The position numbers were made by a program, and so were the translations under genes. The notes beneath the pieces are model-generated. The model was not told the origin of the DNA. It did not search any database and worked only from the letters and a program-made list of their open reading frames with translations. Source: a virus. From it: a stretch of 32,299 nt of DNA. The DNA is taken from IMG/VR virus record IMGVR_UViG_3300025138_007131, positions 1 to 32,299 of that record. One strand, written 5' to 3'. Positions 7,482 to 25,559 of this stretch are shown here, piece by piece (within the stretch, counting starts at the first letter, position 1; the number at the start of each line of letters is the position of its first letter).

Positions 7482-7608
7482 TTTTCTTCTCCTGGTTTAT
7501 TTTATCAATTATTTGGCGTTGTTCTTGTATAATTTGTTGTTGTCTCTCTAACTCTAAGAACTGCTTATCAGTATCACTTGTTTGTGGGAATTTAATTACA
7601 TTTTCCAT
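7474..7608 (-). CDS. Small coiled-coil protein, 44 residues
   Basis: I found this by translating the gap upstream of the nuclease. ATG 7608 to TGA 7474 encodes MENVIKFPQTSDTDKQFLEL followed by a Gln/Glu/Arg/Ile-rich helix (QIIQEQRQIIDKINQEKK). Its ATG shares a base with the stop of the gene before it (TAATG) and its end overlaps the nuclease start. The continuous chain of overlaps supports it as a real gene. Function unknown; the helix suggests oligomerisation or a partner protein. Confidence 0.65.
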   Translation of the reverse strand: MENVIKFPQTSDTDKQFLELERQQQIIQEQRQIIDKINQEKKNV

Positions 7609-7757
7609 TATTTTATATACTTTTTTAATAACAAATATATTGTATAACAAGCAAACAAATATGCAGTTGCTACACCTACATCAACTAAATGTTCTCGCAT
7701 ATGGTATATGAATTCTATACCTGCTTGAACATCGCCTTCTGTTACTTTTTGTTCCAT
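7608..7757 (-). CDS. Small single-pass membrane protein, 49 residues
   Basis: ATG 7757 to TAA 7608. The N-terminus MEQKVTEGDVQAGIEFIYHM is soluble and amphipathic. It is followed by a hydrophobic segment (VGVATAYLFACYTIYLLL) and a basic tail KKYIK. The start lies 2 bases after the upstream stop and the end overlaps the next start. Function unknown; with its neighbours it forms a run of small inner-membrane proteins. Confidence 0.65.
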   Translation of the reverse strand: MEQKVTEGDVQAGIEFIYHMREHLVDVGVATAYLFACYTIYLLLKKYIK

Positions 7758-7759
7758 TA

Positions 7760-8080
7760 CTAATTCCCCCATGTTTCCATTATAAGTTCGCTAAACGCCT
7801 GTCCTATGAGCCACATAAAAACTAAAAGATAAAATGTCATTACAAGCATTATTGGTATTGCTATTATACTAACCCATATTGGTTTATTTTTTAACCAATA
7901 AATTAATCTTTTAATTTTATTTTTAACTCCATCTAAAAAATATTTACCTACTGTCCATCTCATCAAACGCATTACTATCAATATAGGCGATGTAATTACA
8001 TCAAATAGTATTAAGAATAAGTCTACGCATATATCCACAACATGGTCTATATTCAACCACTTGCGAAAACGTTGCCACAT
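7760..8080 (-). CDS. Small membrane protein
   Basis: A 106-residue protein with a hydrophobic stretch near residues 17-40 (VDICVDLFLILFDVITSPIL). A basic amphipathic middle (KNKIKRLIYWLKNK) follows, then a strong membrane segment near 69-95 (VSIIAIPIMLVMTFYLLVFM). No family is recognised. The ATG overlaps the stop of the 66-residue gene upstream by one base. Possible roles include a holin-like or host-takeover membrane protein; nothing in the sequence decides this. Confidence 0.65.
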   Translation of the reverse strand: MWQRFRKWLNIDHVVDICVDLFLILFDVITSPILIVMRLMRWTVGKYFLDGVKNKIKRLIYWLKNKPIWVSIIAIPIMLVMTFYLLVFMWLIGQAFSELIMETWGN

Positions 8081-8280
8081 TAGTCACTGCCGACCATGTC
8101 GAATAATGCAGGGCCAAACGTACTTCCAGCCCATCCTAATGCTACAATAGTTATTACTCCTAATACAAGCCATTTCATTTTAAAGTCGTCTACTACCATC
8201 TTTAGTCCAATGAATTCGTTACCTAATATTCTTACACTTACTTCTAATTTTCCTTGATCGTCCGGTCCTTTGATTGACAT
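8080..8280 (-). CDS. Small membrane protein
   Basis: A 66-residue protein. The N-terminal half (SIKGPDDQGKLEVSVRILGN) is polar and strand-like, and a membrane helix follows (WLVLGVITIVALGWAGSTF). The ribosome binding site AGAGGTAAG precedes ATG 8280. A TATAAT-like -10 lies about 20 bases upstream without a clear -35. It leads the run of small membrane genes ending with the nuclease. Function unknown. Confidence 0.62.
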   Translation of the reverse strand: MSIKGPDDQGKLEVSVRILGNEFIGLKMVVDDFKMKWLVLGVITIVALGWAGSTFGPALFDMVGSD

Positions 8281-16597: not shown

Positions 16598-16605
16598 TAT
16601 TTATG
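16598..16605 (-). promoter_or_regulatory. Candidate late promoter for the tail fibre
   Basis: CATAAATA on the minus strand, 20 bases upstream of the fibre ATG and overlapping the stop of the nuclease gene. It fits the NATAAATA late-promoter form. Confidence 0.5.
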
Positions 16606-17320
16606 CGAACTTCTCGTAATAGGTGTAGACTCTATTGTACCATTCGGTCCGCCACTCGTCATATTCATGCGGCCATACATCAAACTGTTGATATGTTTCT
16701 CCACCTAGCAACATTCCGTCATCTCCGCGACTACACATAAAAATATGTCCTTCACGTATGTCTGTGCCGTAGATTTCGTTGTGTGCTTCTGCGTATGCTA
16801 CTAGCTGTAAGAAGTAGTTTTGTACATACTCTAGCTTCTTAGGCTTGTTAGTTTGTTTAAAGTCCATTATGCTAGGTTGTCCTTTGTACTGTCCAACTAA
16901 GTCTGTTGTGCCTGCATACATTTGTGGAACATAAAGAGCAACCTCACTTCCCCAAATCTCATCTACATCAACCATAGCATTGTCGCGAACTTGTGTTGCC
17001 ATTGCATGTGCTTTCTTAGCAAATGGATTGCTTCCAGGAGTCGGCCATTCACCAAAGTCTACATAGTCCTCTAAATATTTGTGCATACGTGTGCCAACAC
17101 CTGCGGCTTCTGTTGTTATTTCTCTTGCTTTAGTTTCACCTACACGTTTACGCCAAGCTATTAGTCCTGTCTTGTCGCTTGTAGCATCAAGAATAGTTGT
17201 AACACTAGCAACTGCACCTCCGTCAGGAGTTAGATACTTTCGTTTACCATCTATTTGTTTACGTGAAATTGGTTTATAATCGTACTTAGGCTTAATCAAA
17301 CTACTCATAGTCAAGACCAT
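16601..17320 (-). CDS. PD-(D/E)XK nuclease, RecB/Cas4-like exonuclease
   Basis: A 239-residue nuclease (ATG 17320; an internal ATG at 17308 is equally possible). Motifs in order: GLIAWRKRVGETKA; AGVGTRMHKYLEDYV (the G-T-x-x-H-x-x-E helix); EVALYVPQMYAGTTDLVGQY (Glu, then Asp); IMDFKQTNKPKK (the D-x-K catalytic core); YFLQLVAYAEAHNEIY (QxxxY). This is the RecB-family layout, found in phages for recombination or host DNA degradation. Its start overlaps the Nfu stop by 20 bases. RecB/Cas4-type enzymes may carry an iron-sulfur cluster, but I see no four-cysteine set here (a single Cys in FMCSRGD), so it is probably cluster-free. Confidence 0.82.
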   Translation of the reverse strand: MVLTMSSLIKPKYDYKPISRKQIDGKRKYLTPDGGAVASVTTILDATSDKTGLIAWRKRVGETKAREITTEAAGVGTRMHKYLEDYVDFGEWPTPGSNPFAKKAHAMATQVRDNAMVDVDEIWGSEVALYVPQMYAGTTDLVGQYKGQPSIMDFKQTNKPKKLEYVQNYFLQLVAYAEAHNEIYGTDIREGHIFMCSRGDDGMLLGGETYQQFDVWPHEYDEWRTEWYNRVYTYYEKFA

Positions 17321-17618
17321 CGTCCATCATAGATGGTCCGTAATCATTATAATAAGGTTGTACATCACTAGCACCGTCTTGAGCTTCAACTGTTAGTACC
17401 TCAGGTACATAATGTTTTAGCATATTTTCAACACCCATTTTAAGTGTAATTGTGCTTCCCATACATCCACTGCATGCCCCGCCTAATTCTAGAAGCAAAT
17501 GTCCTTCTTTATAATCAACGTATTCAATAACGCCGCCGTGACTAGCTACAGCTGGTTTTACATGTGATTCGATTAACTCTTTGATTTGTTCAATGACTTC
17601 TTCGTCAGGTCTACTCAT
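17301..17618 (-). CDS. NifU-like (Nfu) iron-sulfur cluster carrier
   Basis: A 105-residue protein consisting of the NifU C-terminal domain. It shows IKELIESHVKPAVASHGGVI, then LLLELGGACSGCMGSTITLK with the cluster-binding C49-x-x-C52, followed by GVENMLKHYVPEV. Such proteins hold a 4Fe-4S cluster between two subunits and pass it to target enzymes. There is no degenerate A-type domain, so it is the minimal form. It has its own promoter (17641-17669) and AGGAGA. A phage copy would help mature host or phage Fe-S enzymes or repair them under oxidative stress; the target is unknown. Confidence 0.9.
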   Translation of the reverse strand: MSRPDEEVIEQIKELIESHVKPAVASHGGVIEYVDYKEGHLLLELGGACSGCMGSTITLKMGVENMLKHYVPEVLTVEAQDGASDVQPYYNDYGPSMMDDGLDYE

Positions 17619-17674: not shown

Positions 17675-17995
17675 TTATAGTCCTGCATCTGCTTTAGTTG
17701 CAGATTTAGCCATATTAGCAACTGTGTTGTCGCCTTTGGTGTCTGCTGTAGGCATATCATCAACTGCACTACCGTCGCTAAATGTTATTTTTTCAGCATC
17801 AAAATTCTTTACAAGTTCTTTGAATCCACCATCTTTATCGTATGCAGATTTAAAAACATCATAATTAAATTGTGACTGAAGAACGTTCTGCATGATCTTA
17901 TCTAGTTCGTCAAAGGTATAATCCTTGCGTTCGCCCTTTGATAAGACTTTTAGAACGTTATATATTTGATCTGTGCTTACAGACTCAATTATTTC
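17675..17995 (-). CDS. C-terminal extension reached by -1 frameshift
   Basis: This frame encodes EIIESVSTDQIYNVLKVLSK, then a Tyr/Asp-rich segment, and ends ANMAKSATKADAGL. Between the upstream in-frame stop (near 18024) and the ATG at 17893 there is no ATG, GTG or TTG. Yet the peptide in that stretch reads like real protein (ERKDYTFDELDKIMQN). It is entered by a -1 shift at the slippery site 17995-18001, giving a 418-residue fusion with the scaffold-like protein. The alternative is a separate 72-residue protein from ATG 17893, for which I see no good ribosome binding site. Confidence 0.68.
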   Translation of the reverse strand, partial: EIIESVSTDQIYNVLKVLSKGERKDYTFDELDKIMQNVLQSQFNYDVFKSAYDKDGGFKELVKNFDAEKITFSDGSAVDDMPTADTKGDNTVANMAKSATKADAGL

Positions 17996-18930
17996 TTTTT
18001 TTTTCCGGAAAGTATAGCGCCAACCTTACGTGAACGTTCGATTGATTCTCTAGTAGCTCGACCAGCTTCTTCTTCGCCACTTTGTGCCGCCGCGGCCGCC
18101 GCAAAGTCATCTTCACTTGGTTCTTCTGCAGGTGCTTCTGCGTCTACTGTTGGTTCCATTGCTGGATCAGCTTCTGCGTCCATTGCTGGGTCTTCTGCAC
18201 CCATTGCATCTGCCGGCTCACCTTCTCCTGTAAGCATGCCAACTCCGCCAGTCAACGCAACACGAGTTGTTTCCATTTCAGCATATAGTGCATCAAGTGC
18301 TGGCTTAATTGCCGCAGTAAATGCTTCCGAAGTTTCTGAACCCATTTCGTCTCTGATAGCATCTGCTAGTTCTAACATTGATTCTGACTGCATCTCTGCT
18401 GTGTCTTCCATCCAACCTGTTAGTTTGTCAACCATATCCTTAGATGCCATTACTAGTTGTGCTTTATCTTCTTCACCTTCTTTAATAACTGATTCTTTCA
18501 TTCCTGATTTACAATCTTTGACCATTGCTTTTATTTTTGCTTGATCGCAATCTGGATGCATTTTACAAATTTCTTCCATACTCTTACCATCTTTGCACAT
18601 TTTCATAATGTGTGCTTTTGATGGCATTTTGCCTTTTTCAGTTTCAGAAAGTTCTTCTGCTGTTGGAATGCCTTTTTCGTCTTGACGTTCAATAATAGCT
18701 TTGTTCAAAATGTCTAGGAACAATTTTGATTTTTGGTAGCTGTCTGTATGAACTGCATTGAAGCTTTCATTAGTTTCAATATCTCTTACTTGAGATCTAA
18801 GTTGGTTACGTGCATCTTCTAACTGTGCAAAATTAAACTTTGCTAAGTCAATTTTCGTTCCAAACTTTTGTGCCATGCTTTCATTAAGGGTAGCACTTGT
18901 AATTGGTTTTGCTATTTCTCTAATATTCAT
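17989..18930 (-). CDS. Virion/head scaffold-like protein with frameshift end
   Basis: A 313-residue protein in the zero frame. The N-terminal domain (MNIREIAKPITSATLNES; QLEDARNQLRSQVRDIETNE; DSYQKSKLFLDILNKAI) resembles a structural protein of T4-like marine phages. A middle section with cysteine-containing repeats (IMKMCKDGKSMEEICKMHPD) follows, and a long acidic, Ala/Glu-rich helical region (about residues 155-290) typical of head scaffold proteins. It ends SGKKKK, with the last lysines encoded by an A9G run that is a dnaX-type slippery site. Late-type promoter GATAAATA lies at 18967-18974. The scaffold role is inferred from composition and context. Confidence 0.72.
   Translation of the reverse strand: MNIREIAKPITSATLNESMAQKFGTKIDLAKFNFAQLEDARNQLRSQVRDIETNESFNAVHTDSYQKSKLFLDILNKAIIERQDEKGIPTAEELSETEKGKMPSKAHIMKMCKDGKSMEEICKMHPDCDQAKIKAMVKDCKSGMKESVIKEGEEDKAQLVMASKDMVDKLTGWMEDTAEMQSESMLELADAIRDEMGSETSEAFTAAIKPALDALYAEMETTRVALTGGVGMLTGEGEPADAMGAEDPAMDAEADPAMEPTVDAEAPAEEPSEDDFAAAAAAQSGEEEAGRATRESIERSRKVGAILSGKKKK
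17995..18001 (-). other. A AAA AAG slippery heptamer for -1 frameshift
   Basis: In the zero frame the gene ends GGA AAA AAA AAG AAA TAA, so A-AAA-AAG is in the right phase for tandem -1 slippage (as in E. coli dnaX). The stop follows one codon later. About 11 bases downstream, TCTGT-AAGC-ACAGA can form a 5-bp hairpin (17983-17970), a possible weak stimulator. No clear upstream Shine-Dalgarno-type stimulator is seen. Confidence 0.68.
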
Positions 18931-19396: not shown

Positions 19397-19595
19397 TAGT
19401 TTTTACCAGAGTATACCCGTTATTAATTACTTTACTTACTAAACTTTTCCGAACAAGCCCGTCAATAATGAACTGGTCTCTTTCGTCAAAACTATCTAAA
19501 GGTATGTTACCTTTAATAGAATTATAAAGTTTTTTTTCTTCGTTGTTCATAACAACTTTTATAGTAGTATCTGATAAGAATTCATTAGCTTTCAC
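19371..19595 (-). CDS. Small hypothetical phage protein
   Basis: A 74-residue protein beginning MKANEFLSDTTIK, which shares the M-K/R-x-x-E-F/L pattern found at the start of several proteins in this run (possible capsid-targeting peptide). The rest (FDERDQFIIDGLVRKSLVSK, NGYTLVKTNG) looks like a small winged-helix or mixed alpha/beta domain. It overlaps the genes on both sides. Function unknown. Confidence 0.62.
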   Translation of the reverse strand: MKANEFLSDTTIKVVMNNEEKKLYNSIKGNIPLDSFDERDQFIIDGLVRKSLVSKVINNGYTLVKTNGSKFTNK

Positions 19596-20026
19596 TATTT
19601 TTGTCCTTGATTGCCTAAGGTACCCTCAGGTCCTTTAGCATTTGGGGTAGAGCTATTTGGATCGCCCAACCCTTTAACAATAGTGTCAATGTCTTTCTTT
19701 AAATAGGATATTTTCTCCGGTTCTTCAGGAGCTTTTTTAGCATCAGGATTAATAAGTGTAACCATATCTCCGTCAACATCGTCAATTTCAAAATCATTTG
19801 TTCCGTTTTTAGTTGGCATTGGTATTGTACCACCTGGCTTAACTAACTGTTGTATAACTTTATCTTGACTTTTCTTTACTGTATTAGCAGGACTACCCGG
19901 TCCTGATCCAGCTGTGTCGTCTTTACCATCAGTGTCTCGAGTCATTCCTTGACCCTGTGGCATTACTGGAAGTTCTTCAGTTGTAGGAGTATTTTTTTTA
20001 GTAATAATAAATTCACTATATCTCAT
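19595..20026 (-). CDS. Low-complexity phage protein with targeting-like N-terminus
   Basis: A 143-residue, Gly/Pro/Thr/Asp-rich, mostly disordered protein. It begins MRYSEFIITKK, matching the shared N-terminal pattern. One ordered stretch is visible (NDFEIDDVDGDMVTLINPD), followed by a short helix (ISYLKKDIDTIVKGL). The ATG overlaps the previous stop (ATGA). Composition and place suggest an internal head or scaffold-associated protein; this is inference. Confidence 0.6.
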   Translation of the reverse strand: MRYSEFIITKKNTPTTEELPVMPQGQGMTRDTDGKDDTAGSGPGSPANTVKKSQDKVIQQLVKPGGTIPMPTKNGTNDFEIDDVDGDMVTLINPDAKKAPEEPEKISYLKKDIDTIVKGLGDPNSSTPNAKGPEGTLGNQGQK

Positions 20027-20469
20027 ATCTTCTTAGCCCTTCCTTTTGCAAATCTTCTCTTAGGTCTTTTGTTAGCAGATCCTAAGCGTCTTGATACTGC
20101 ACTTGTTCTTTTAGTTTTAGCAGTTTGAATTTTAATTCTACTGCCCTTCTTGCGTTTGGTCTTTTTCATTGTCAGCTTGGCTGTTTGATTTATTGGAGCA
20201 TTACATGTCGCCGCTTTAGCAACAATACGTCCTTTACGTTGTCCACTAGTACATCGATATTTACGGACTTGTTTGTTACCGCTCTTACCCCAGATAGCTC
20301 TCACAGCTTCATCTATGTCTTCATGTGGTTCCCCATCTTTCATTAACTCCCCGTCTGGCATAACATGATATCCATCTGGAATAGGTTTACACATGTCAGA
20401 AGTTCTACAAAAATATTCACCATCTTTGCATTGTGGGTCTGCCTCTGATATTAGCTCACGTAAATTCAT
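20023..20469 (-). CDS. KYRC-motif basic protein with Cys-rich N-terminus
   Basis: A 148-residue protein starting MNLRELISEA, followed by a cysteine-bearing segment (DPQCKDGEYFCRTSDMCKPI). A very basic C-terminal domain follows: QVRKYRCTSGQRKGRIVAKA, ATCNAP, then KKTKRKKGSRIKIQTAKTKR. The last 90 residues are paralogous to the next upstream gene, with both conserved cysteines kept. Similar proteins are common in T4-like marine phages. The charge suggests DNA contact in the head. An L-x-x-E/A junction after the first nine residues would suit a T4 gp21-type prohead protease. Confidence 0.68.
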   Translation of the reverse strand: MNLRELISEADPQCKDGEYFCRTSDMCKPIPDGYHVMPDGELMKDGEPHEDIDEAVRAIWGKSGNKQVRKYRCTSGQRKGRIVAKAATCNAPINQTAKLTMKKTKRKKGSRIKIQTAKTKRTSAVSRRLGSANKRPKRRFAKGRAKKI

Positions 20470-20753
20470 CTTCTCTTACTACTCTTATTCATACTAGCAA
20501 CTCTACGACTTGCTGGATTCATACGTTTAGTACGCTTCGCCTTACGTATCATACGCTTACCTAATCTAGCCTTAGTTCTTTTAAGCGACATCCTCTTTTT
20601 CATATCAGGTGCCGCAAAACATGCCGCAGGACTGCTTACAATCCTACCATGTCTTTTACCGCCAGAGCAACGATACTTTCGGACTACATTCTTTCCAGAA
20701 CGTGCCCAAACTTGTTTCTCTACGATAGTTGATATAAGTTCACGCAAATACAT
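20466..20753 (-). CDS. KYRC-motif basic protein, paralogue
   Basis: A 95-residue, strongly basic protein with N-terminus MYLRELISTIVEKQ. Its core is VVRKYRCSGGKRHGRIVSSP and AACFAAPDMKKR, then a Lys/Arg-rich helix ending NPASRRVASMNKSSKRR. It is the shorter paralogue of the gene at 20023-20469; the two overlap by four bases, suggesting tandem duplication. A role as a packaged DNA-binding or head-maturation protein is inferred from charge and location. Confidence 0.7.
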   Translation of the reverse strand: MYLRELISTIVEKQVWARSGKNVVRKYRCSGGKRHGRIVSSPAACFAAPDMKKRMSLKRTKARLGKRMIRKAKRTKRMNPASRRVASMNKSSKRR

Positions 20754-23253: not shown

Positions 23254-24390
23254 TTATCGTACTACGGCTCTATTAGCCGCACTAAATGTTGCTCTTGGTA
23301 CTAGTTTTACATCGCCTTTAGGGTGAGCTAGTACATACCCTTCACCGCCCGGTTGGCCGTTGATACTTTGTTTAACCTGTCCGCCTTGACTATCAAACTT
23401 ACTAATAATATCATTCTTGGTATTCATTACTGCTGTTACTACATTCCATAATGCTGTAAAAGCAGACTTATGTTCATTAATATATTGTAGGACTTTGTTT
23501 TTCATCTTGTCCGATACTTGTTTTCTAACCTCTAACCATTTAGCAAAGTCTGCACCTAGGTTAGTTAATCCTGTATCTACTTTGCTGTTCATATATGCAT
23601 AAAGCAAATCAGGTAACCCTTTCATTTGCTTTTGTGTTAAGGTATTAACATTTAGTAATTCATCTATACCTGCGGCATTTTTAGTTACTATTGATTTAAG
23701 TTGATCAATAGCGCCTGTGTCAATTTCAACTGGTTGCTCTGTTGTTACACTTGGAACTACTAATACATCTTTTTGGCTATTAAACATATCAATACTCTTA
23801 AATGGTCCTTCGTTACCTTGGTCATCTACTTCTCTATGTATTACAATGCCAGTTGTACTTTTACCTATACGTTTTCCTAAGTCACTATTAACATCAACAG
23901 CATACTCAACTATCTGCGGTTTAAATATATAATTTTTCTCTTTAACTTCTGGTGTTGTATAATACAACAGGTCGCCTTTGAAATATCCTCGATATGTATC
24001 CGGAACTGTTTTTTCATATAATCCAAAAATAGTTGCCATTTTATCTGCAAATGCTATTCTACCTGGGTCGTCTTTGAGCTTTCCTCCACTACGTCCAAGT
24101 AGTGCGGCTTTAAGTGCGTCTGGTGAAGTAGTACGTTCTACTCCGTCCTTTTTCATAAATCCTGACTTATCTGTAAAAACAAACTCACCCTTATCGTTAC
24201 GACCAAATACAACAGCTGGTGCACCGTCCCATTTAAGTGTTACTGATTTATGAGCATCACCTGTCATGCTACGAAGTGCATCTATTGCATGACTTGCTCC
24301 TTTACTTCCTTGATAAAAGATTAAGTCTTCAGCATGTTGTATACGTGCTTCCATTTCTTTTAATGGTTGTTTGAATTCAACAAAACGCAT
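23254..24390 (-). CDS. Ligase-like covalent nucleotidyltransferase candidate
   Basis: A 378-residue protein. After a targeting-like N-terminus (MRFVEFKQPLKEME) it carries motifs in the order of the DNA/RNA ligase superfamily. VTLKWDGAPAVVFG (K-x-D-G, nucleophilic Lys about residue 51) is followed by YFKGDLLYYTTP (motif III-like) and TTGIVIHREV. Near the C-terminus, GGEGYVLAHPKGDVKLVPR has an E-G-Y-V-L motif IV and K-L-V motif V. A helical insertion separates them. It overlaps by one base the upstream polymerase-beta-type gene. I believe related proteins occur in T4-like marine phages as an uncharacterised family. Ligase or capping activity is predicted from motifs, not shown. Confidence 0.7.
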   Translation of the reverse strand: MRFVEFKQPLKEMEARIQHAEDLIFYQGSKGASHAIDALRSMTGDAHKSVTLKWDGAPAVVFGRNDKGEFVFTDKSGFMKKDGVERTTSPDALKAALLGRSGGKLKDDPGRIAFADKMATIFGLYEKTVPDTYRGYFKGDLLYYTTPEVKEKNYIFKPQIVEYAVDVNSDLGKRIGKSTTGIVIHREVDDQGNEGPFKSIDMFNSQKDVLVVPSVTTEQPVEIDTGAIDQLKSIVTKNAAGIDELLNVNTLTQKQMKGLPDLLYAYMNSKVDTGLTNLGADFAKWLEVRKQVSDKMKNKVLQYINEHKSAFTALWNVVTAVMNTKNDIISKFDSQGGQVKQSINGQPGGEGYVLAHPKGDVKLVPRATFSAANRAVVR

Positions 24391-25559
24391 TATCTAATCC
24401 TCTGTGCCAAATCTATTATTTCGTTATAGGCTTCTGGAAGTTCCAAATTATCTCTTGCAAATCCTTCTTTAGCATCTGCTACCAATTGTTCGTAATCTGG
24501 TCTACCTTTAATAGCTTTAATAATATTTTCAACACTATCTAAGTCTGAAATCTTAGTACCTTTACCAAGTAAATTATCTGCAACTCCCTGCGGATCTTTT
24601 GCTATCATTTCTCCAGACTCCCTATTTGTAAGTCCGTTTTGGAAACTCCATTTCATACCTTGTGCTTTTGCAATACTAGCCATTAGTAAATGCCTATGCA
24701 TACCTTTGTATGGAGTATTGTCTCCTGAGCCTCTAAGGCTAAACTTTTGCCATTCTGGATCGCCAAACATTAAATCTGTCTGTACAAATCCATTCTTTGG
24801 ATCACCAAGTATCGGTGTTTTGAAGTGAACACTAACTCCTGATTTCGCAACCCATTGTCTAACTTCGTCCTCAGGATGATTCTTTTGTGCCCAAGCCGCT
24901 AGTTTATTAAATAGTTCCTGTTTATCTACATCATTTTGGTTAACGCTGATATCCATATCACCACTTGTGCTTCTAATACCTGTGCTACCTAATTTAAAAT
25001 CTTTATGCGGAAGTCCTGTAATCTTTTCTAACCATGCAAGTGTTGGATCAACGTCAGCTTGATTAATACGTTGCGTCACTGGTTGCTTGTTTTGATCTTT
25101 AAAGATGTTTCCACCTTCTTTTAATAGTTGCCCTGTATTTGTCTTACTTTCGTAAAATCCTCGGTCAGTTGGCTTTGCCGCATTGTATCCTCTAGCACCA
25201 TCTCTAGCACTTAAAGGTATTTGATTGTTATTACTAGGTAGCCACGCATCTCTTGCTGGCTCCCATGCCCATACAATACCGTTCTTATCTTTGTATTGTG
25301 CCGACTTTGGCATTTTATCTTGATTAATTCTTGTATTTCTAAAATTATTTTTTTGAACTTTTTTAGTTTTAGATTTTTTATCATCTTTGTTATCACCAAC
25401 CGGTTCAGCAGTAGAAGCAGGTCCTTTGTTGCCTGTTTGTTTTTGTGCAATATCAACCTGTTGTTGTAACCAACTACCACGTACCCAGTCATCGGCTTTT
25501 TTCACCCAACTCTTACCTTTTTTCTTTTTAGGTGCTTCTAATAGATCGTCTATTTTCAT
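24390..25559 (-). CDS. Polymerase-beta-type nucleotidyltransferase candidate
   Basis: A 389-residue protein beginning MKIDDLLEAPKKKKGKSW, a targeting-like then basic N-terminus with a disordered linker to residue about 90. The catalytic domain shows LGSTGIRSTSGDMDISV (G-S with D-x-D about ten residues later, near residue 187-203) and a third Asp in VQTDLMFGD. Together these are the metal ligands of the polymerase-beta nucleotidyltransferase fold. The C-terminal part is helical. Its stop overlaps the start of the ligase-like gene (TAATG), implying a functional pair. The substrate is unknown; tRNA or nucleic-acid end addition are candidates. Confidence 0.72.
   Translation of the reverse strand: MKIDDLLEAPKKKKGKSWVKKADDWVRGSWLQQQVDIAQKQTGNKGPASTAEPVGDNKDDKKSKTKKVQKNNFRNTRINQDKMPKSAQYKDKNGIVWAWEPARDAWLPSNNNQIPLSARDGARGYNAAKPTDRGFYESKTNTGQLLKEGGNIFKDQNKQPVTQRINQADVDPTLAWLEKITGLPHKDFKLGSTGIRSTSGDMDISVNQNDVDKQELFNKLAAWAQKNHPEDEVRQWVAKSGVSVHFKTPILGDPKNGFVQTDLMFGDPEWQKFSLRGSGDNTPYKGMHRHLLMASIAKAQGMKWSFQNGLTNRESGEMIAKDPQGVADNLLGKGTKISDLDSVENIIKAIKGRPDYEQLVADAKEGFARDNLELPEAYNEIIDLAQRIR

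Follow-up and report, generated by a model that had tools for sequence, protein, structure and literature searches.

Our analysis suggests that a large clade of uncultured, mostly marine relatives of Rak2-type jumbo myoviruses uses -1 ribosomal frameshifting to join a small virion protein to a head-precursor protein, from which the prohead protease would then free it. We consider this overall account likely, with the slip, the delivery and the release inferred from sequence comparison. Taken separately, programmed -1 frameshifting at the heptamer A_AAA_AAG is highly probable, and the complete scheme of slippage, packaging by a carrier and cleavage is moderately likely. Under this scheme, most ribosomes would stop at a TAA codon and produce a protein of 313 aa, while a fraction would slip on A_AAA_AAG beside that stop, probably aided by a downstream hairpin, to produce a protein of 418 aa. 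The slip would append a 106-aa winged-helix-like domain (hereafter the tail) to the head-precursor protein, which would carry the fused domain into the prohead. There the phage's own gp21-type prohead protease would cut at (V/I/L)xE just past the slip, leaving the small domain free inside the head. The slip would take the place of a separate tail gene that, in relatives, has its own start codon and a capsid-targeting-like leader.

The window (the whole stretch of DNA analyzed, 32,299 nucleotides) carries the gene on its minus strand. A preliminary description had placed it at 17675-18930; the span stands but the orientation does not, as these positions are the 3' and 5' ends of the gene, respectively. 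The zero-frame ORF closes with TCC GGA AAA AAA AAG AAA TAA, and rechecking of phase and positions confirmed the terminal in-phase heptamer exactly as first described: its phase is X_XXY_YYZ, a single sense codon separates it from the TAA, and the A9 run occupies 17996-18004 on the minus strand. In the -1 frame, no stop codon intervenes between 34 nt upstream of the zero-frame stop and 314 nt downstream of it, and the predicted trans-frame product has 418 aa. The claims that this frame stays open for 106 codons and lacks a start codon before 17893 were both borne out; its earliest start codon is an ATG at that position, 98 nt past the zero-frame stop. Separately, a NifU-domain protein, possibly the product of an iron-sulfur cluster gene, is encoded between the tail and an exonuclease gene (Table 1).

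Table 1. Positions in the window of the frameshift gene, its candidate signals and the genes downstream (arrows mark candidate cleavage positions).
Feature	Position	Strand	Basis or remark
Zero-frame ORF, head-precursor protein, 313 aa	17989..18930	-	Homologue of virion protein CBB_298
Slippery heptamer A_AAA_AAG in zero-frame phase	17995..18001	-	Kept in 159/188 distinct relatives
Zero-frame stop TAA	17989..17991	-	One codon past the heptamer
-1-frame tail, 106 aa plus stop	17675..17995	-	Codons 17995-17678, stop 17677-17675
Candidate stimulatory hairpin UUGA.UCUGU(AAGC)ACAGA.UCAA	17966..17988	-	3' of the heptamer; folding energy and z-score
Prohead-protease-like junction motif I-I-E↓S, -1 frame; junction peptide K-K-E-I-I-E	17981..17992	-	Tail motif statistics
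N-terminal L-N-E↓S, candidate prohead-protease site closing a capsid-targeting-like propeptide	18877..18888	-	L-N-E followed by S, T or N, or a close variant, in 181/187 relatives; same L-N-E-S in CBB_298
I-K-E↓G, second protease-like site, directly ahead of the conserved long helix	18475..18486	-	[V/I/L/M]-x-E-G ahead of the helix in 184/187 relatives; E151 and G152 invariant
NifU-domain gene, 3' of the tail	17301..17618	-	PF01106, E=1e-24
Exonuclease gene (phrog_298)	16601..17320	-	In synteny with the nuclease that follows CBB_298/CBB_299 in Rak2-like phages

A scan of IMG/VR yielded 523 stretches encoding a relative of the 313-aa protein. Together with searches from divergent members and two MAG loci, it gave 188 distinct loci, which are not independent of each other. 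The preliminary description had proposed looking for the slippery run in relatives, and it is widely retained: in 159 of the 188, an in-phase A_AAA_AA[G/A/C] is combined with a -1-frame tail. The form A_AAA_AAG accounts for 139 of these 159, and in 133 the heptamer ends 0-3 nt ahead of the zero-frame stop. This retention far exceeds chance; further upstream in the same genes, an in-phase A precedes only 22 of 164 AAA-AAR Lys-Lys pairs.

The length of the A run varies among the 159 loci (A9 in 134, A10 in nine, A8 in eight, A6 in eight), which bears on two explanations that dispense with a ribosomal slip. One is a sequencing or assembly error reporting A9 in place of A10; such errors are common in homopolymers, and the window is a single contig from a metagenome. 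The same frame relation, however, recurs in 159 distinct relatives drawn from numerous metagenomes and two MAGs, always with the frames one apart whether the run is A6, A8, A9 or A10. We regard such an artefact as extremely improbable, with the A6-only loci excluding it. The other is that RNA polymerase adds an A within the run, so that an edited mRNA is read straight through. The A9 and A10 runs are long enough for this in principle, whereas A6 is too short, and the eight A6 loci keep an exact in-phase A_AAA_AAG; a further eight loci have only A8. Moreover, the AAG form stays in phase in 139 of the 159 loci, although slippage on a run needs no codon phase. Transcriptional slippage (reviewed in PMC5009743) is thus unlikely, and the A6-only loci disfavor it as a general cause.

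One of the 188 loci is truncated; the remaining 28 lack the slippery site, and in each of them the tail has an ATG and a capsid-targeting-like leader. Relative to the main gene, these tails lie in frame 0 in 13 cases, +1 in six and -1 in nine, and most have a TAAGGA-like ribosome-binding sequence ahead of the ATG. At one such locus (L266) the peptide Ser-Lys-Lys-Lys is kept but spelled TCA AAG AAG AAG, which is not slippery, and the tail has its own ATG. A normal tail start codon in relatives had been named in advance as a finding that would speak against frameshifting. Such start codons do exist, but in exactly those relatives without a slippery site, and we read them as an alternative arrangement rather than as a refutation: with the heptamer present in 159 loci and absent from the 28 that have their own ATG, slip and own start appear to be substitutes for one another. 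On a quick tree, in which the outgroup branch is very long, the two states require five changes, so the exchange has probably occurred more than once. At L053 (6945-7361), an A6G slippery site coexists with a tail ATG and a leader-like peptide, which may represent a transitional form. At another locus, L043 (6001-8274), we observed a tandem partial duplication in which the 3' half of the main gene is copied (7520-7984) together with its own -1-frame tail (7981-8274).

Purifying selection acts on the tail as a -1-frame protein. Over 42 independent pairs, its dN/dS is 0.14 in the -1 frame, compared to 1.2 for a wrong-frame reading of the same DNA. Codon conservation upstream of the ATG at 17893, a check proposed at the outset, is also protein-like: the first 25 tail codons after the zero-frame stop have a dN/dS of 0.23 in the same number of pairs. 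These values weigh against the idea of a separately initiated tail, through reinitiation or an internal -1-frame start, with no frameshift involved. Such an origin would accord with the tail ATG of the 28 split relatives, with the presence of some start codon within 36 nt in 18 of 143 distinct frameshift-type tails, and with the co-occurrence of slippery site and ATG at L053. However, in 65 of the 143 tails the first 90 nt or more past the heptamer contain neither ATG nor GTG nor TTG, yet the codons in this interval are conserved as protein; at L077 no tail start codon appears until 272 nt past the stop, and in the window the first ATG falls within the conserved domain. We therefore consider separate initiation very improbable and a ribosomal slip the better account of the frameshift-type loci.

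A_AAA_AAG is the natural shift site of E. coli dnaX and out-shifts related heptamers in E. coli tests (PMC5009743). The hairpin TCTGT/ACAGA described earlier is real and longer than first noted (Table 1), and the 40 nt past the heptamer of the window fold with -7.2 kcal/mol (z -3.3). Across 109 non-redundant loci, the region just 3' of the heptamer is the most structured window between -180 and +285 when compared with shuffles, with a mean z of about -1.1 to -1.2. As the split class shows a similar value after its stop (-1.25, n=17), this structure is not specific to frameshift-type loci and lends frameshifting moderate support. We found no consensus RNA structure common to all loci, no match to a known frameshift element in Rfam, and no upstream Shine-Dalgarno stimulator (longest match 2.97, versus 2.49 at control positions); such a stimulator is dispensable in some known cases, for instance cso2 (PMC5009743).

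Both halves of the putative fusion have counterparts among virion proteins. When isolated phages were searched directly with the window gene, neither DNA nor protein comparison returned a match, and the link to Rak2-like jumbo phages was obtained through synteny of the neighboring exonuclease. The main protein is matched by the CBB_298 group (E 8.5e-8) and by phrog_14154, a "virion structural protein" family (E=3e-12). The next gene, CBB_299, occupies the position of the tail and aligns with it end to end, though the profile match is weak (probability 31%, E 5e-4); this match and the synteny together suggest that the two are homologous. CBB_299 carries a leader of its own, M-R-F-S-Q-I-T-E. Mass spectrometry of CBB virions identified ten unique peptides of CBB_298 and two of CBB_299 (PMC5259590 Table 4), and the pair ENKO_328 and ENKO_329 was detected by LC-MS/MS in published data on virions of phage fENko-Kae01. 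In isolated relatives, both split homologues thus belong to the virion.

For the main protein, prediction gives an all-helical structure that includes a long helix and a disordered, acidic linker, and Foldseek returned no match for it below E 0.8. This fits the all-helical head-precursor type and to that extent the initial label "scaffold-like", but CBB_298 occurs in mature virions, and the gp22-type scaffold is apparently another gene beside the protease. We accordingly rejected the identity of this gene with the gp22 major scaffold: one large relative, G020, has a 364-aa coiled-coil-like ORF beside its protease and the frameshift gene elsewhere, and CBB has a different gene between its protease and major head protein. 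For the tail, a small winged-helix-like fold is predicted (mean pLDDT 70, core about 80-85), followed by a C-terminal part that is predicted to be disordered and ends in a conserved V-x-x-M-A motif. Its top Foldseek matches in the PDB are mostly winged-helix domains, none below E 0.03; the best viral match (E 1.5e-4) is an uncharacterised protein. No Pfam or PHROGs family matched the tail, and its alignment varied too much to serve as the query for scanning the collection. Because the tail domain is acidic, a DNA-binding role is less likely, and a structural or protein-binding role for the released domain is the more likely one.

The junction created by the slip resembles a processing site. 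In 95.8% of the 143 distinct tails, [V/I/L]-x-E lies no more than 9 aa from the slip, against 1.0% of internal windows; the preliminary description had overlooked this motif. The prohead protease of T4, gp21, cleaves after L/I-x-E (PMC9026906), and short N-terminal leaders direct the T4 internal proteins into the head before this protease removes them (PMC9958956, PMC9026906). Valine is the commonest residue at the first position of the junction motif, where the T4 motif has L/I. This likeness suggests a precursor from which the tail is released, and two sites of the same kind are conserved within the main protein (Table 1). The three largest relatives (G020, G021 and G022) encode a gp21-type protease (PF03420, E about 1e-26), and all of them have the frameshift arrangement. 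Profiles for the gp21-type protease and the major capsid protein found no match in short contigs, nor was the protease found in the 32 kb fragment that forms the window.

It is also conceivable that the frameshift is real but the tail remains uncleaved, as a permanent C-terminal extension on a minority of head proteins. Frameshift extensions of phage coat proteins, as in T7/T3 or A2, are a precedent for this (PMC5009743). On the other hand, the junction motif is nearly universal and fixed in position relative to the slip, further sites of the same motif are conserved in the main protein, and relatives make the tail as a virion protein in its own right. A permanent extension is hence improbable, although less so than the other alternatives considered above, and we favor release by the protease. 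Similar leader-like N termini were seen by inspection in the neighborhood of the gene (19595-20753, 23254-25559 and 17989-18930, minus strand), namely MRYSEFI, MNLRELISEA, MYLRELIS, MRFVEFKQPLKE and MKIDDLLEA; these genes are possibly a cassette of head-targeted proteins. Over whole contigs, there is a mild enrichment of capsid-targeting-like leaders (12.3%, against 7.6% of internal windows).

Frameshifts annotated in phages lie mostly in tail assembly chaperones, with few in coat proteins, and among the papers listed by our literature searches on frameshifting in phage scaffold, internal and head proteins, none describes the present case. The frameshift proposed here is kept in 159 distinct sequences and lies where two virion proteins meet, at a protease-like site. 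It suggests that the dose of an encapsidated protein could be fixed at assembly without a second start site, and it offers a natural comparison, in which sister lineages deliver the same protein through a frameshift fusion or through a targeting leader. More generally, we lean, somewhat tentatively, toward a mode of cargo loading in which the slip rate sets the dose of tethered cargo, the protease frees it, and tethering is exchanged in evolution with capsid-targeting leaders. Annotations of many relatives probably miss the start of the tail or the entire tail gene.

Several other observations concern the contigs themselves. Inspection of translations by eye revealed a curli-like cluster, with a CsgG-like lipoprotein and curlin-repeat proteins, at about 11200-14589 of L098 and about 2196-5513 of L102, and a DnaK homologue elsewhere on both contigs. 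Two jumbo-phage-like contigs, L103 (PBPT01000016.1, 335 kb) and L104 (PALK01000009.1), are binned in a Neomarinimicrobiota MAG and a Rickettsiales MAG, respectively, which may reflect contaminated bins or hint at hosts.

Among known systems, E. coli dnaX shares the heptamer and its phase, and has a stem-loop downstream where the window has its candidate hairpin, but there the shift shortens the product whereas here it lengthens it; here, in addition, the stop codon adjoins the heptamer and we found no upstream Shine-Dalgarno-like stimulator. The tail assembly chaperones gpG/gpGT of lambda, to which the preliminary description likened this gene, also yield a short and a long product through a decoding choice. 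The analogy holds for that step but not for the genes involved: the flanking genes are those for NifU, exonuclease and ribonucleotide reductase, with no tail tube or tape-measure neighborhood found, the proteins are of head type, and both split homologues occur in virions. Closer in outcome are gene 10 of T7/T3 and the major head protein of Lactobacillus phage A2, in which a -1 frameshift adds a C-terminal extension to a minority of the head protein. In these phages, however, the extended form is a capsid shell protein, while the gene described here does not encode the major capsid protein, its tail is also encoded as an independent virion protein by relatives, and the junction bears a protease-like site. 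The internal head proteins of T4 (IPI-III and Alt) resemble the split relatives in having a leader-like N terminus that ends in a gp21-like site, and the large relatives encode the protease; in the frameshift arrangement, by contrast, the cargo would be fused to a carrier and has no leader of its own, and V is preferred where T4 has L/I. The nearest counterpart is the Rak2-like pair CBB_298/CBB_299 (gp27/gp28 of 121Q, ENKO_328/329), which appears homologous, has the same gene order with the same nuclease following, and is found in virions, but consists of two ordinary genes, the second with its own start codon and leader.
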